From an uncultured Pelagibacteraceae bacterium (lineage in GTDB: Bacteria > Pseudomonadota > Alphaproteobacteria > Pelagibacterales > Pelagibacteraceae), in assembly GCA_902623735.1 (NCBI GenBank), contig CACNUU010000002.1, forward strand, positions 98,761-162,760: a stretch of DNA of 64,000 bases. Reading direction: 5' to 3'. The notes beneath the pieces were generated by a model. That model did no database searches and had not been told where the DNA came from. It saw only the letters and a list, made by a program, of their open reading frames with translations. Both the position numbers and the translations under genes were made by a program. Positions 33,992-38,166 of the stretch are shown one piece after another (the stretch's first letter is position 1; every line of letters begins with the position of its first letter).

Positions 33992-35073
33992 TTATTTAAA
34001 ATACTTTTTGCTTCTCTCATAAATTTAATATTTTCTTTTTTAGATCCAATTGTTAATCGCAACATATTTTTGATTTTATAACCATCTTCAGTAGATCTTA
34101 AAATAATACCTTTTAATTTCAATTTTTCGTAAAAGTATCTTGCCTTTAATTTACATTTCGTAAAGTTTAATAATAAAAAATTAGCAGAAACTTTATTTGA
34201 GCTAATGTTATACTTATTTAAAAAATTTTTTAATTTGGTTGCATATCTAATATTGTGTTTTATTGATCGAGAAATAAATTTATTATCTTTGAGAGACTCA
34301 ATCGCAGCTTTTTGTGCAACCTCATTAACATTAAATGGTGGTTTAATAATATTGAGTGCATCAATAATTTTCTTTGATCCGTGGCCCCATCCAATTCGTA
34401 AGGACGATAAACCATAAATTTTTGAAAATGTTCTCAATATAAAAACATTATATTTATTTTTAAATAAATCTAACCCTGATTTGTAATCATTATTTTTCAT
34501 ATATTCTGCATAAGCATCGTCCACAACCAACAGAATATTTTTTCTTAATTTTTTTCTCAACTCAATTAATTCAAGCTTAGTAAGGTATGTGCCTGTTGGA
34601 TTGTTTGGATTAGCTATAAAAACGATCTTAGTTTTTTTTGTAACCTTTTTAATTATTTCTGGTACAGATACTTTAAATTTTATTTCTTTGGCAAAAATAA
34701 CATTAGCACCAACTATGCTAGCATAAATTCTATACATCAAAAAACTAAATTGTGGAACAATCACTTCATCTTTTGGTTTTAAAAATAATTGGCACAACAT
34801 TTGAATTACTTCATCGGAGCCTGCTCCACAAATAATCCTATCCATATTACAATTAAATTTTTTTGCAATTTGATTTCTAAGTAATTTTGATTTTCCATCT
34901 GGGTATTTAGAAAAATTTAATTTTTTATTAGACATAACTTTCTTAACTCTCAAACTCATACCTAAAGCAGATTCGTTTGCAGAAAGTTTAATAATTTTTC
35001 TAAATCTCTTTAAATTTGATTTTCCTGGTTTATAGGCTTCAATATTCAGTTTTTTAAATGTAATGACACTCAT
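33988..35073 (-). CDS. hisC: Histidinol-phosphate aminotransferase
   Basis: PLP aminotransferase of histidine synthesis; with tyrA beside it, it probably also works on aromatic precursors. The 361 residues show KLSANESALGMS at the start, GAGSDEVIQMLCQL, ANPNNPTGTYL, VDDAYAEYM and the PLP lysine in RTFSKIYGLSSLRIGW. Divergent from metX across 192 bases that hold the metX promoter and a SAM-II riboswitch. Confidence 0.94.
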   Translation of the reverse strand: MSVITFKKLNIEAYKPGKSNLKRFRKIIKLSANESALGMSLRVKKVMSNKKLNFSKYPDGKSKLLRNQIAKKFNCNMDRIICGAGSDEVIQMLCQLFLKPKDEVIVPQFSFLMYRIYASIVGANVIFAKEIKFKVSVPEIIKKVTKKTKIVFIANPNNPTGTYLTKLELIELRKKLRKNILLVVDDAYAEYMKNNDYKSGLDLFKNKYNVFILRTFSKIYGLSSLRIGWGHGSKKIIDALNIIKPPFNVNEVAQKAAIESLKDNKFISRSIKHNIRYATKLKNFLNKYNISSNKVSANFLLLNFTKCKLKARYFYEKLKLKGIILRSTEDGYKIKNMLRLTIGSKKENIKFMREAKSILNK

Positions 35074-35147
35074 CTTTTTAATATTTATGACCTTTATAAT
35101 TAAAATAAGAATTTTTCATATAGTTATAAGTATAAATATTTTTAAAA

Positions 35148-35176
35148 TTGACATACTAAATAACTTCTTGTACAAA
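35148..35176 (+). promoter_or_regulatory. Promoter of the metX operon
   Basis: TTGACA (35148-35153), a perfect -35 box, 17 bases, then TACAAA (35171-35176) as the -10 box. The expected start seven bases later is G35183, the first base of the first stem of the SAM-II aptamer, which supports both calls. Confidence 0.65.
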
Positions 35177-35182
35177 ATTTAT

Positions 35183-35231
35183 GCGCTGATTTACCTGAAT
35201 TGCGAGCGCTCTAAAAAAACCGCTAAAAAAG
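35183..35231 (+). promoter_or_regulatory. SAM-II riboswitch aptamer upstream of metX
   Basis: The sequence follows the SAM-II consensus: GCGCTGATTTA, then ATTGC, AGCGC and GCTAAAAA. Stem P1 is GCGCU (35183-35187) with AGCGC (35205-35209). The pseudoknot pairs UUGC (35200-35203) with GCUA (35222-35225), and C35195/U35196 with G35231/A35230. The uridines that contact the ligand in the known structure (U10, U11, U21, U44) correspond to 35190, 35191, 35201 and 35224, all U here. SAM-II elements control met genes in alphaproteobacteria including SAR11. It would turn metX-metW down when SAM is plentiful. Confidence 0.9.
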
Positions 35232-35244
35232 TTTTTTCTCGCAA
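35200..35244 (+). promoter_or_regulatory. Alternative hairpin overlapping the SAM-II aptamer
   Basis: TTGCGAG (35200-35206) pairs perfectly with CTCGCAA (35238-35244), and inside it AAAAAAC (35214-35220) pairs with GTTTTTT (35231-35237), leaving a six-base bulge and a ten-base loop: 14 pairs in all. It uses UUGC, part of AGCGC and G35231, which the aptamer also needs, so the two folds exclude each other. This is the probable expression platform. Confidence 0.6.
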
Positions 35245-35265
35245 AATTCACTAATCGGCTCTGTT

Positions 35266-36396
35266 ATGAATATAAAAAAGAATATAAAAACATTGATTAT
35301 TGAAAAACCGCTAAAATTAGACTGCGGTCAAACTATCAGTAATTTTCCTTTAGCCTATGAAACTTATGGAACTCTTAACAAAAATAAAGACAATGCAATT
35401 TTAGTTTGTCATGCCTTAACTGGGGATCAATTTGTCACTGGTATAAATCCAATTACCAATAAAGATGGGTGGTGGGCATATGCCGTTGGCCCAAATAAGT
35501 CTATTGATACAAATAAATATTTTGTTATTTGTGCAAATGTAATTGGTGGATGTATGGGATCTTTTGGACCTAGCCATGAAAATCCTAAAACAAAAAAAAT
35601 TTATGGAACAGACTTTCCAATTATTACAATTAATGACATGGTCAACGCCCAAGTAAATTTATTAGATTTCTTTGGTATTGAAAAACTTTTTTCAGTTATA
35701 GGAGGTTCAATGGGTGGTATGCAGGTTTTACAATTTGTTAGTAATTTTCCTGACAAGGCCAGAACAGCAATACCAATCGCCTGTACATCCAATCATTCTG
35801 CTCAGAATATTGCTTTCAATGAACTGGGTAGACAAGCTATTGCAGCTGATCACAATTGGCTAGATGGAAATTATGCTTCAAAAAATACTGTCCCGAATAA
35901 AGGATTGTCTGTTGCTCGAATGGCTGCACATATAACCTATTTGTCAAAAAAGGGACTTCAGGAAAAGTTTGGGAGAAAATTACAAGAAAGAGATGATCTT
36001 AAATTTGGTTTTGATGCTGACTTTCAAATAGAAAGTTATTTACGATATCAAGGCTCAGTTTTCGTAGATAGATTCGATGCAAATAGTTATCTTTATATAA
36101 CTAGAGCAATGGATTATTTTGATTTGGTAAAACAATTTAATGGTAATTTGTCTAATGCCTTTAAAAATACAAAAACTAAATTTTTTATAATATCTTTTAC
36201 TTCTGACTGGCTTTACCCAACCCAAGAAAATAAAGAGATTGTAATTGCTCTAAATGCAGTAAATGCAAATGTAGGTTTTGTAGAAATAGAATCTGATAAA
36301 GGTCATGACTCTTTTTTACTAGATGTGCCGGATTTTTTAAAAGCACTTAAAAATTTTTTAGATAAATCTTTTATAGAAAATCATGATGAAAACTGA
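35266..36396 (+). CDS. metX: Homoserine O-acetyltransferase
   Basis: Activates homoserine with acetyl- (or succinyl-) CoA for methionine synthesis. Alpha/beta-hydrolase fold of 376 residues: oxyanion and nucleophile block SVIGGSMGGMQVLQF (Ser148), the ACTSNHSAQN block, the aspartate in FTSDWLYP and the histidine in SDKGHDSFLLD. No Shine-Dalgarno is visible before the ATG. Expression is most likely governed by the SAM-II riboswitch directly upstream. Overlaps metW by 14 bases. True acyl donor (acetyl versus succinyl) cannot be told by eye. Confidence 0.95.
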   Translation: MNIKKNIKTLIIEKPLKLDCGQTISNFPLAYETYGTLNKNKDNAILVCHALTGDQFVTGINPITNKDGWWAYAVGPNKSIDTNKYFVICANVIGGCMGSFGPSHENPKTKKIYGTDFPIITINDMVNAQVNLLDFFGIEKLFSVIGGSMGGMQVLQFVSNFPDKARTAIPIACTSNHSAQNIAFNELGRQAIAADHNWLDGNYASKNTVPNKGLSVARMAAHITYLSKKGLQEKFGRKLQERDDLKFGFDADFQIESYLRYQGSVFVDRFDANSYLYITRAMDYFDLVKQFNGNLSNAFKNTKTKFFIISFTSDWLYPTQENKEIVIALNAVNANVGFVEIESDKGHDSFLLDVPDFLKALKNFLDKSFIENHDEN

Positions 36397-36982
36397 GTAT
36401 AAAATTATTGCTGATATTATTGAAAATAATTCGAGTGTATTAGATGTGGGATGTGATGATGGAACTTTGATGGAATTTTTAAAAACTAATAAAAATACTA
36501 ATATAAGAGGAATTGAAATTTCTAAAGAGAAAGTTCAAATTTGTATCGCTAAAGGATTAACTGTTATTGAAGGAAATGCAGAATTTGATCTAAAACAATT
36601 TCCTAATGACTCATTTGATTATGTCGTTTTAGGACAAACTTTACAAGCTTTTGTTAATCCAGAGTTGGTTATTAGAGAGCTTTTAAGAGTTGGTAAAAAA
36701 GCTGTTGTAACTATTCCTAATTTTGGACATTGGAAGGTTAGACTTAATTTGTTAATTAAAGGAACAATGCCAATTACAAATTCATTACCAAATGATTGGT
36801 ACAACACACCTAATATTCATATGTGCACGATAAAAGATTTTGTAAAATTCTCTAAAATAATTGGTTTCAAAATTTTTAAATCTTTAGCCTTAGAAAATAA
36901 AAATATATCTAATATAAATCGCTCAAATTTATTTTTCAAAAATTTATTTGGTGAACTTGGAATATTCTTAATAGAAAAATAA
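36383..36982 (+). CDS. metW: Methionine biosynthesis protein MetW
   Basis: Methyltransferase-fold partner of MetX, needed for full homoserine acyltransferase activity in several proteobacteria. The 199 residues show the SAM-binding-like block SSVLDVGCDDGTLMEFL, IRGIEISKEKVQICIAKGL, and FDYVVLGQTLQAF, all typical of MetW. No methylation substrate is known. Always next to metX in this clade; it overlaps metX by 14 bases and abuts gloB with no gap. Confidence 0.93.
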   Translation: MMKTEYKIIADIIENNSSVLDVGCDDGTLMEFLKTNKNTNIRGIEISKEKVQICIAKGLTVIEGNAEFDLKQFPNDSFDYVVLGQTLQAFVNPELVIRELLRVGKKAVVTIPNFGHWKVRLNLLIKGTMPITNSLPNDWYNTPNIHMCTIKDFVKFSKIIGFKIFKSLALENKNISNINRSNLFFKNLFGELGIFLIEK

Positions 36983-37702
36983 ATGAAAATTGAAATCATA
37001 AAATGTCTGCAAGATAATTTCACTTATTTGATTATTGATAAAAAAACTCAAATTGCATGTGTTGTTGATCCTAGTGAGGCAGCACCTATTATTAAATTTT
37101 TACAAAATAAAAAAATAAATCTTAAGTATATACTTAATACTCATCATCATCACGATCATGTTGGTGGAAATATTGAATTAAAAAAAAAATATGATTGTAG
37201 CGTCATAGGCTTTAAAGGAGATAAAGATCGTATTCCAGAAATTGATATTCTATTAGAGGATAATCAAATATGGAAAAAAGATAACTTTGAAGCGAAAATT
37301 TATCATATTCCTGGTCATACAACAGGTCATATTGCTTTCCATTTTTTTAAAGAAAAAAAAATTTTTACTGGTGACACTTTATTTTCTCTTGGTTGTGGTA
37401 GATTATTTGAAGGCACCTATGAACAAATGTTTAACTCTTTAAAAAAAATTAAACAACTTCCTAAAGATACAGAAATCTACTGTGGTCATGAGTATACTTT
37501 GCAAAATTCTAATTTTTGTCAGGCTAATGATCCTGAGAATTTAAAACTTAAAGAAAAAATTGTAAGAATCAAAGACCATCTTAAAAAAAATTTACCTACT
37601 ATTCCGACTATTTTAGAAGATGAACTTGAATGTAATATATTTCTAAAAGCAAAAGATTTAAAAACTTTTTCAAAACTGAGAGATTTGAAGGATAATTTTT
37701 AG
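36983..37702 (+). CDS. gloB: Hydroxyacylglutathione hydrolase (glyoxalase II)
   Basis: Dizinc metallo-beta-lactamase-fold enzyme that hydrolyses S-lactoylglutathione in methylglyoxal detoxification. The 239 residues carry THHHHDHVGG, IPGHTTGHIAFHF, GDTLFSLGCGRLFEGT and GHEYTLQN, and the C-terminal glutathione-binding domain. The start follows the metW stop directly, so it is the last gene of the riboswitch-controlled operon as far as can be seen. No terminator hairpin follows it. Confidence 0.95.
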   Translation: MKIEIIKCLQDNFTYLIIDKKTQIACVVDPSEAAPIIKFLQNKKINLKYILNTHHHHDHVGGNIELKKKYDCSVIGFKGDKDRIPEIDILLEDNQIWKKDNFEAKIYHIPGHTTGHIAFHFFKEKKIFTGDTLFSLGCGRLFEGTYEQMFNSLKKIKQLPKDTEIYCGHEYTLQNSNFCQANDPENLKLKEKIVRIKDHLKKNLPTIPTILEDELECNIFLKAKDLKTFSKLRDLKDNF

Positions 37703-37712
37703 TTTATAGAGC

Positions 37713-37740
37713 TTGACTATGGTTTAGCTAAGATTATATT
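37713..37740 (+). promoter_or_regulatory. Promoter of the rplU operon
   Basis: TTGACT (37713-37718), 16 bases, TATATT (37735-37740). It lies in the 65-base gap after gloB and predicts a start near 37747, giving a leader of about 21 bases without a Shine-Dalgarno sequence. Confidence 0.5.
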
Positions 37741-37767
37741 GCGTTAATTAAAAATTAAATATTCTAT

Positions 37768-38166
37768 ATGTCTTACGCAGTAATACAAACAGGTGGAAAA
37801 CAATACAAAGTTAAGTCAGGTGAGATCTTGAAAATTGAAAAACTTCCAAATTCTAAGCCTGATACTAAAATAGAATTTAAGGAAGTTATTGCTTATGGTG
37901 ATGAAAAAGCTATAGAGATTGGTGCTCCTACCATACAAGGTGCTAAAGTTGAAGCAAATTTAATTAAGAACAGTAAAAATAGAACTATTTTAATTTTTAA
38001 GAAAAGAAGAAGACAAAATTCAAGGCGAAAGAATGGACACAGACAAGAATATTCAATGATTAAAATAAACAAAATTTTTTCAAAAGATGGTAAGATTTTA
38101 TCAGAAGCTGAGAAAGTTTCAAAAACTTCGAATAAAGAAGTTGCAGAAAAAAAAACAAGTAAGTAA
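37768..38166 (+). CDS. rplU: 50S ribosomal protein L21
   Basis: Large-subunit protein. The first 100 residues are standard L21 (YAVIQTGGKQYKVKSGEILKIEKL, FKKRRRQNSRRKNGHRQEYSMIKI). A tail of about 30 residues rich in Lys, Ser and Glu (total 132) extends beyond the E. coli length of 103, as is common in alphaproteobacteria. Followed 12 bases later by rpmA, the conserved pair. Confidence 0.97.
   Translation: MSYAVIQTGGKQYKVKSGEILKIEKLPNSKPDTKIEFKEVIAYGDEKAIEIGAPTIQGAKVEANLIKNSKNRTILIFKKRRRQNSRRKNGHRQEYSMIKINKIFSKDGKILSEAEKVSKTSNKEVAEKKTSK

Follow-up and report, generated by a model that had tools for sequence, protein, structure and literature searches.

In one genus of the Pelagibacteraceae, the marine SAR11 bacteria, the leader of the gene metX combines a SAM-II riboswitch aptamer with a long imperfect hairpin that takes up the core strand of that aptamer, and comparison of related leaders indicates that this competing hairpin is a real, strongly conserved and genus-specific expression platform. 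The leader from which the analysis proceeds lies on the forward strand of a 64,000-nucleotide stretch of DNA from an uncultured member of the family, referred to here as the window, and it is predicted to adopt two folds that exclude one another. The aptamer, its promoter, the hairpin, the conservation of the hairpin and a single conserved defect within it can be established by comparison of sequences. For the function of the platform, a genus-specific anti-aptamer hairpin acting as a post-transcriptional OFF switch is favored, with a probability of roughly one half, because such an output would account for the retention of the downstream block from which the hairpin is built.

Transcription of the leader is predicted to begin at G35183 or a neighboring base, downstream of a promoter composed of TTGACA (35148–35153), a 17-nucleotide spacer and TACAAA (35171–35176). 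Among 101 distinct metX leaders retained from the window's genus after a protein search, TTGACA is present in all and stands 35 nucleotides upstream of the GCGC of the aptamer in 99. The aptamer itself (SAM_alpha, 35183–35233) was assigned with cmscan, using the Rfam models RF00521 and RF01726, and from homologues in the family. Its P1 stem (35183–35186/35206–35209) closes a UGAUUU loop, L1; P2a pairs UUGC (35200–35203) with GCUAA (35222–35226), and P2b consists of C35195–G35231 and U35196–A35230. The P1 stem, the loop and the UUGC and GCUAA strands of the pseudoknot are present in the window and invariant in the 101 leaders. The replacement of a C–G pair by U–A at 35196/35230, pointed out in the preliminary description of this DNA, is likewise present and is the usual state in the genus, where most leaders have CU/AG in P2b and some have the C–G pair alone.

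Both the promoter and the riboswitch had been proposed in that description, and both identifications stand. The covariance models give a divided answer, in that both SAM-II models match, RF00521 at 35173–35247 (25.9 bits, E = 0.0083) and RF01726 at 35177–35236 (28.3 bits, E = 0.023), but both scores are under the respective gathering scores of 36 and 44. Matches to RF00521 occur in 119 of 197 genomes of the family and none of the 197 reaches the gathering score; G153, a genome whose aptamer is identical to the SAM-II RNA of laboratory studies, itself scores 34.1 bits. Because the lineage of the laboratory RNA also falls below the cut-off, a score of this size is no ground to deny membership of the SAM-II class, and by its conserved elements the metX leader carries a real SAM-II aptamer. 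The gene downstream (35266–36396) encodes a homoserine O-acetyltransferase of 376 amino acids, its open reading frame being named by homology and from the annotation in PMC2704228, and has homologues in 175 of the 197 family genomes. A position upstream of a methionine/SAM gene, with the promoter just 5′ of P1, fits the SAM-II class. The aptamer is not new, since SAM-II upstream of metX in "Ca. Pelagibacter ubique" is among the cases listed by Meyer et al. 2009 (PMC2704228).

Folded from 35183 onward, the window leader has as its minimum free energy structure a single long hairpin of 25 pairs, spanning 35185–35259 (−19.9 kcal/mol) and arranged in three tiers. The bottom helix joins GCUGAUU (35185–35191), which overlaps P1 and L1, to AAUCGGC (35253–35259), a strand 7–13 nucleotides upstream of the metX start codon. 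The middle, anti-aptamer helix joins UGAAUUGCGAG (35196–35206), which overlaps P2a, P2b and P1, to 35238–35243 and 35246–35250, a region containing the anti-aptamer block CUCGCAAAAUUC (35238–35249; genus consensus CUCWCAAUUC). The top helix pairs 35214–35220 with 35231–35237; its 5′ strand belongs to an A-run followed by C (35213–35220), and its 3′ strand includes a run of six U residues (35232–35237) that abuts P2b and is a candidate pausing or termination tract. A hairpin of 14 pairs had been described earlier, made of TTGCGAG/CTCGCAA (35200–35206/35238–35244) and AAAAAAC/GTTTTTT (35214–35220/35231–35237). These two inner parts are both real, but the size was underestimated, as the fold adds the pairing of UGAAU with AUUCA and of GCUGAUU with AAUCGGC. 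Since P1, P2 and the elements of the SAM pocket are all consumed or disrupted by the hairpin, it excludes the aptamer, as had been claimed, and its earlier assignment to the SAM-free state is supported as a proposed state.

The alignment of leaders from relatives had been named beforehand as the comparison on which the idea could fail, and the 35231–35244 segment is conserved in all 101. The aptamer, a U-run (U5–U9) and the 3′ block CUCNCAAUUC are present in every one of these leaders, with rare insertion or deletion variants of the block; the leaders are related and not independent of one another, a limit that applies to these counts of conservation and equally to those for the bottom helix given below. 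The block reads CUCACAAUUC in 74 leaders, CUCUCAAUUC in 22, CUCGCAUAAUUC in 2 and CUCCAAUUC in 2, the remaining variant being that of the window. Spacing around it is variable, with 0–3 nucleotides inserted 5′ of the block and 10–20 nucleotides separating it from the AUG. When the block alone is shuffled, mean pairing between block and aptamer strand falls from 0.68 to 0.07, and the mean folding energy changes from about −17.7 to −13.4 kcal/mol. The base immediately 3′ of the block is A or G, either of which can pair with U, in all unique spacers except one.

For the bottom helix, a full five-pair complement of GCUGA is found in 40 of 86 unique spacers, whereas 500 shuffles gave 3.9 on average and never more than 10, and GCUGA ranks first among 60 permutations when spacers are searched for complements. 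The variants UCAGC, UUAGC, UCGGC, UUGGC, UCAGU and UUAGU all keep the pairing, by G–U or Watson–Crick pairs, and the helix has been lost in some lineages, including one group with short A-rich spacers. For the top helix, the lengths of the U-run and the A-run are correlated (Spearman 0.37, p = 1e-4, uncorrected for relatedness). The aptamer leaves the hairpin's 5′ strand no freedom to vary, so that one-sided changes, and not full covariation, are all that such comparisons can show. Similarity over the full length of the leader ends at the border of the genus; other genera match the first 45–57 nucleotides together with short, chance-like pieces, and a search for the platform sequence in viral contigs found none. 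This genus-specific hairpin platform has apparently not been described so far.

The helix formed by the block is never perfect. Duplexes of block and aptamer strand range from −7.3 to −9.5 kcal/mol, compared with −13.6 kcal/mol for the perfect complement CUCGCAAUUC; the perfect ten-pair helix occurs in none of the 101 leaders, and exactly one defect is always kept. In a phylogeny of 81 metX genes, the mismatched base has undergone about 11 independent changes from A to U and never a change to the perfectly pairing G alone, the sole lineage with G (the window and L091) having a two-nucleotide bulge as well. Of the two, A to G is normally the easier mutation, and since G alone is nevertheless never seen, the constant defect suggests that selection disfavors a helix so stable that SAM could not compete with it. 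In a group that is among the most abundant bacteria of the ocean, a single fixed defect of this kind is a sign, and one open to test, that the RNA is tuned between two states.

In the proposed mechanism, when SAM is absent and the leader has been completed, the block (CUCNCAAUUCR) would take UGAAUUGCGAG, the A-run would take the U-run, and the UCAGC-like segment would take GCUGA; the resulting hairpin would dismantle P1, P2 and the SAM pocket and leave the metX start codon single-stranded, the ON state. Were SAM to bind while the polymerase still occupies the U-run or its vicinity, the pseudoknot would retain the aptamer strand and the hairpin would be blocked, and the freed 3′ segment, consisting of U-run and block, would lower metX expression after transcription, the OFF state. 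We infer the binding of SAM at this leader and the ON/OFF polarity, the lowering of metX by SAM being presumed by analogy with the family; SAM-II at metX in the sister genera follows a logic of OFF by terminator. The output step, too, is one that we infer, and the simplest OFF step would be the pairing of AUUCA in the block with UGAAU at the start codon.

Folding of the 3′ part alone predicts a weak start-codon hairpin of this type for the SAM-bound state, AUUCA.UAAU/GUUAUGAAU at 35246–35271 (−2.3 kcal/mol). Pairing of the AUG in the window leader is 0.17 in the SAM-free fold and 0.92 in the SAM-bound fold. The corresponding genus means are 0.30 and 0.60, 11% of leaders show the reverse, with clearly more AUG pairing in the SAM-free fold, and ordinary genes of the window have a mean AUG pairing of 0.54, near the SAM-bound metX mean. 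A search for selection on this hairpin, using spacer shuffles, start-region swaps and second-codon use, found native spacers and start regions no better than swapped ones, AUG pairing being 0.64 with start regions from other genera and 0.60 with the native ones. Complementarity of the start region to the block exceeds that of the block-shuffled control. Because swapped regions are equal to native ones and AUGAAU is found also in genera without the block, the start-codon hairpin gains no independent support, and the AUUCA:UGAAU pairing is a candidate, not a result.

No Shine-Dalgarno (SD) sequence precedes metX in the genus leaders, where P2b runs into U5–U9, so that an SD-masking platform is not encountered. 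From the missing SD, the preliminary description had concluded that translational control is unlikely. The observation is correct, but the conclusion is weak: a strict SD motif lies upstream of 7 of the 59 open reading frames in the window, and since most genes there are without one, its absence says little against control of translation. An intrinsic terminator was sought at 34800–37800 and none was found, nor is one visible in the 101 genus leaders; a terminator made by the complete hairpin was rejected, there being no U-tract 3′ of the hairpin.

A terminator of another kind had been suggested earlier, in which the SAM-bound pseudoknot abutting the U-run would itself be the intrinsic terminator and the hairpin would form solely in read-through transcripts, and this we regard as unlikely. 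The U-run does begin exactly where P2b ends, is at least seven residues long in 93 of the 101 leaders, and is longer than the mostly U4–U6 run at the equal place in sister genera with true terminators, whose platforms are moreover terminators themselves. The proposal nevertheless leaves unexplained the conservation of the block in all 101 leaders, as the block is downstream of the U-run, and since its CUCGCAA strand is transcribed after the U-run it cannot act there as an antiterminator. In addition, P2b is very weak, with one to four mostly A–U pairs, the U-runs are short in the window leader (U6) and its sisters (U5), their length follows that of the A-run, and relatives with a canonical terminator also have a U4–U8 run after P2. 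A form of the idea in which the pseudoknot on the U-tract would be a ligand-stabilized terminator, with the hairpin later locking the read-through RNA into a SAM-blind, translatable state, appears distinctly doubtful. Rather improbable, too, is control through the fate of the mRNA, by which the U/A-rich segment of the SAM-bound leader would be an RNase E-like or Rho entry site that is hidden when SAM is absent; the whole of 35232–35259 toggles between paired and exposed, and the leaders yielded no further conserved signal for an output, but Rho would find this segment short as a loading site.

A decaying riboswitch, having lost its terminator and leaving metX no longer regulated, would fit the scores beneath the Rfam gathering cut-off and the absence of metX from the displayed table of strongly changed genes in a study of sulfur limitation in P. 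ubique (PMC5069961). It is very improbable given that the aptamer core, the promoter spacing and the block are retained in 101 of 101 leaders, and the lineage of the laboratory SAM-II RNA is likewise below the cut-off. That the block is kept as a DNA or protein-binding site, an inverted repeat GAATTGCGAG ... CTCNCAATTC with conserved arms, and not for RNA pairing is extremely unlikely, because arm spacing varies (U-run of 5–9 nucleotides, 0–3 nucleotides inserted before the block) so that helical phase is not maintained, the 5′ arm is already accounted for by the aptamer, and a third helix with wobble-preserving changes indicates RNA.

Elsewhere in the family, the metX aptamer is coupled to other platforms. 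In genera g2, g3, g4, g6 and g8, it is followed by a hairpin of 7–8 base pairs and U8–U9 (20 clear cases, and more by eye), and this terminator includes a complement, 4–8 nucleotides long, of the aptamer's CAGCUAAA; by these features the platform is a classical terminator/antiterminator. In g7, g9 and g12 (L198–L200, L221–L232; 15 cases), P2 continues into AGGA or AGGGA, a hairpin comes next, and the AUG follows about 4–13 nucleotides later, with no U-tract. The sequence of that hairpin varies by genus while compensatory differences keep its pairing, and the arrangement looks like an SD within P2 for which a bridging hairpin closes the distance to the start codon. Genus g5 (L187, L188, L029) has SAM-II upstream of metW, and metX there is without a riboswitch. 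The window's genus has neither terminator nor SD at the metX leader; the usual "stop" hairpin is replaced by the long imperfect hairpin, so that a known switch is wired in a new way. Three read-outs for one aptamer and one gene (terminator, SD with bridging hairpin, and anti-aptamer hairpin) are found within one family, which for that reason provides a natural series for the evolution of expression platforms.

One of these platforms belongs to the 52-nucleotide SAM-II RNA of laboratory studies, UCGCGCUGAUUUAACCGUAUUGCAAGCGCGUGAUAAAUGUAGCUAAAAAGGG (methods of PMC8494917). Its sequence is present letter for letter in the metX leaders of two genomes of genus g4 (L008 and L009; G094 and G153), where GAUGCCCAGUUUAGCUGGGCUUUUUUUUUGG separates it from the metX AUG. 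The frame opened by an AUG directly after the aptamer runs for a mere 10 codons (ATGCCCAGTTTAGCTGGGCTTTTTTTTTGGATGA). Between aptamer and metX lies a canonical terminator (GCCCAGUUUAGCUGGGC-U9), complementary to AGCUAAA; a search for the laboratory sequence in viral contigs found none. We take the same RNA to be the crystallized Sargasso Sea RNA. The literature, as stated in PMC9373788, holds that the Sargasso Sea RNA probably controls translation and that its pseudoknot contains an SD. Because the terminator that follows contains a stretch complementary to the aptamer core, the native control of the laboratory RNA is probably transcriptional and not by SD masking, which bears on years of work treating this RNA as translational.

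Other SAM-II copies have settings of their own. A near-invariant SAM-II-like element in several genera (L171, L173, L174, L175, L177, L178, L180–L182) has a GUCC/GGAC P1, UGAUUU, CUUGC and CGCUAA, then GGAGG, and adjoins a short open reading frame of about 55–60 amino acids; the element probably lets SAM control the translation of a small protein. SAM-II also stands before betaine-homocysteine methyltransferase-like, MetY-like, MetF-like and other methionine genes (L172, L176, L183–L186, L190); a SAM-V-like element often stands in tandem with these copies, and most have a CCACC...GGUGG-U9 terminator, G078 (L172) being without a clear one.

Among known systems, the SAM-II case of Meyer et al. 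2009 (PMC2704228) concerns the same aptamer, the same gene and the same lineage as here, and the passages devoted to it report the aptamer alone, without the conserved anti-aptamer hairpin, the fixed defect or the limit to one genus. SAM-II with an intrinsic terminator (Corbino et al. 2005, PMC1273637, and the sister genera) shares with the window's genus the SAM-free capture of an aptamer strand by a downstream complement; there, however, the complement lies inside a terminator of 7–8 base pairs that is made before the U8–U9 tract, whereas the window's genus has no terminator and its complement is 3′ of the U-run. For the S. meliloti metA SAM-II (PMC9373788) and for g7, g9 and g12, a post-transcriptional output is proposed, as here, and no terminator decides, but their SD is in or beside P2 and the window's genus is without one. 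In the terminator-embedded HMP-PP (thiS) aptamer (PMC6478431), aptamer and platform share nucleotides, again as here; in that system the ligand-bound aptamer is part of the terminator stem, whereas in the metX leader the shared strand is part of the hairpin proposed for the ligand-free state.
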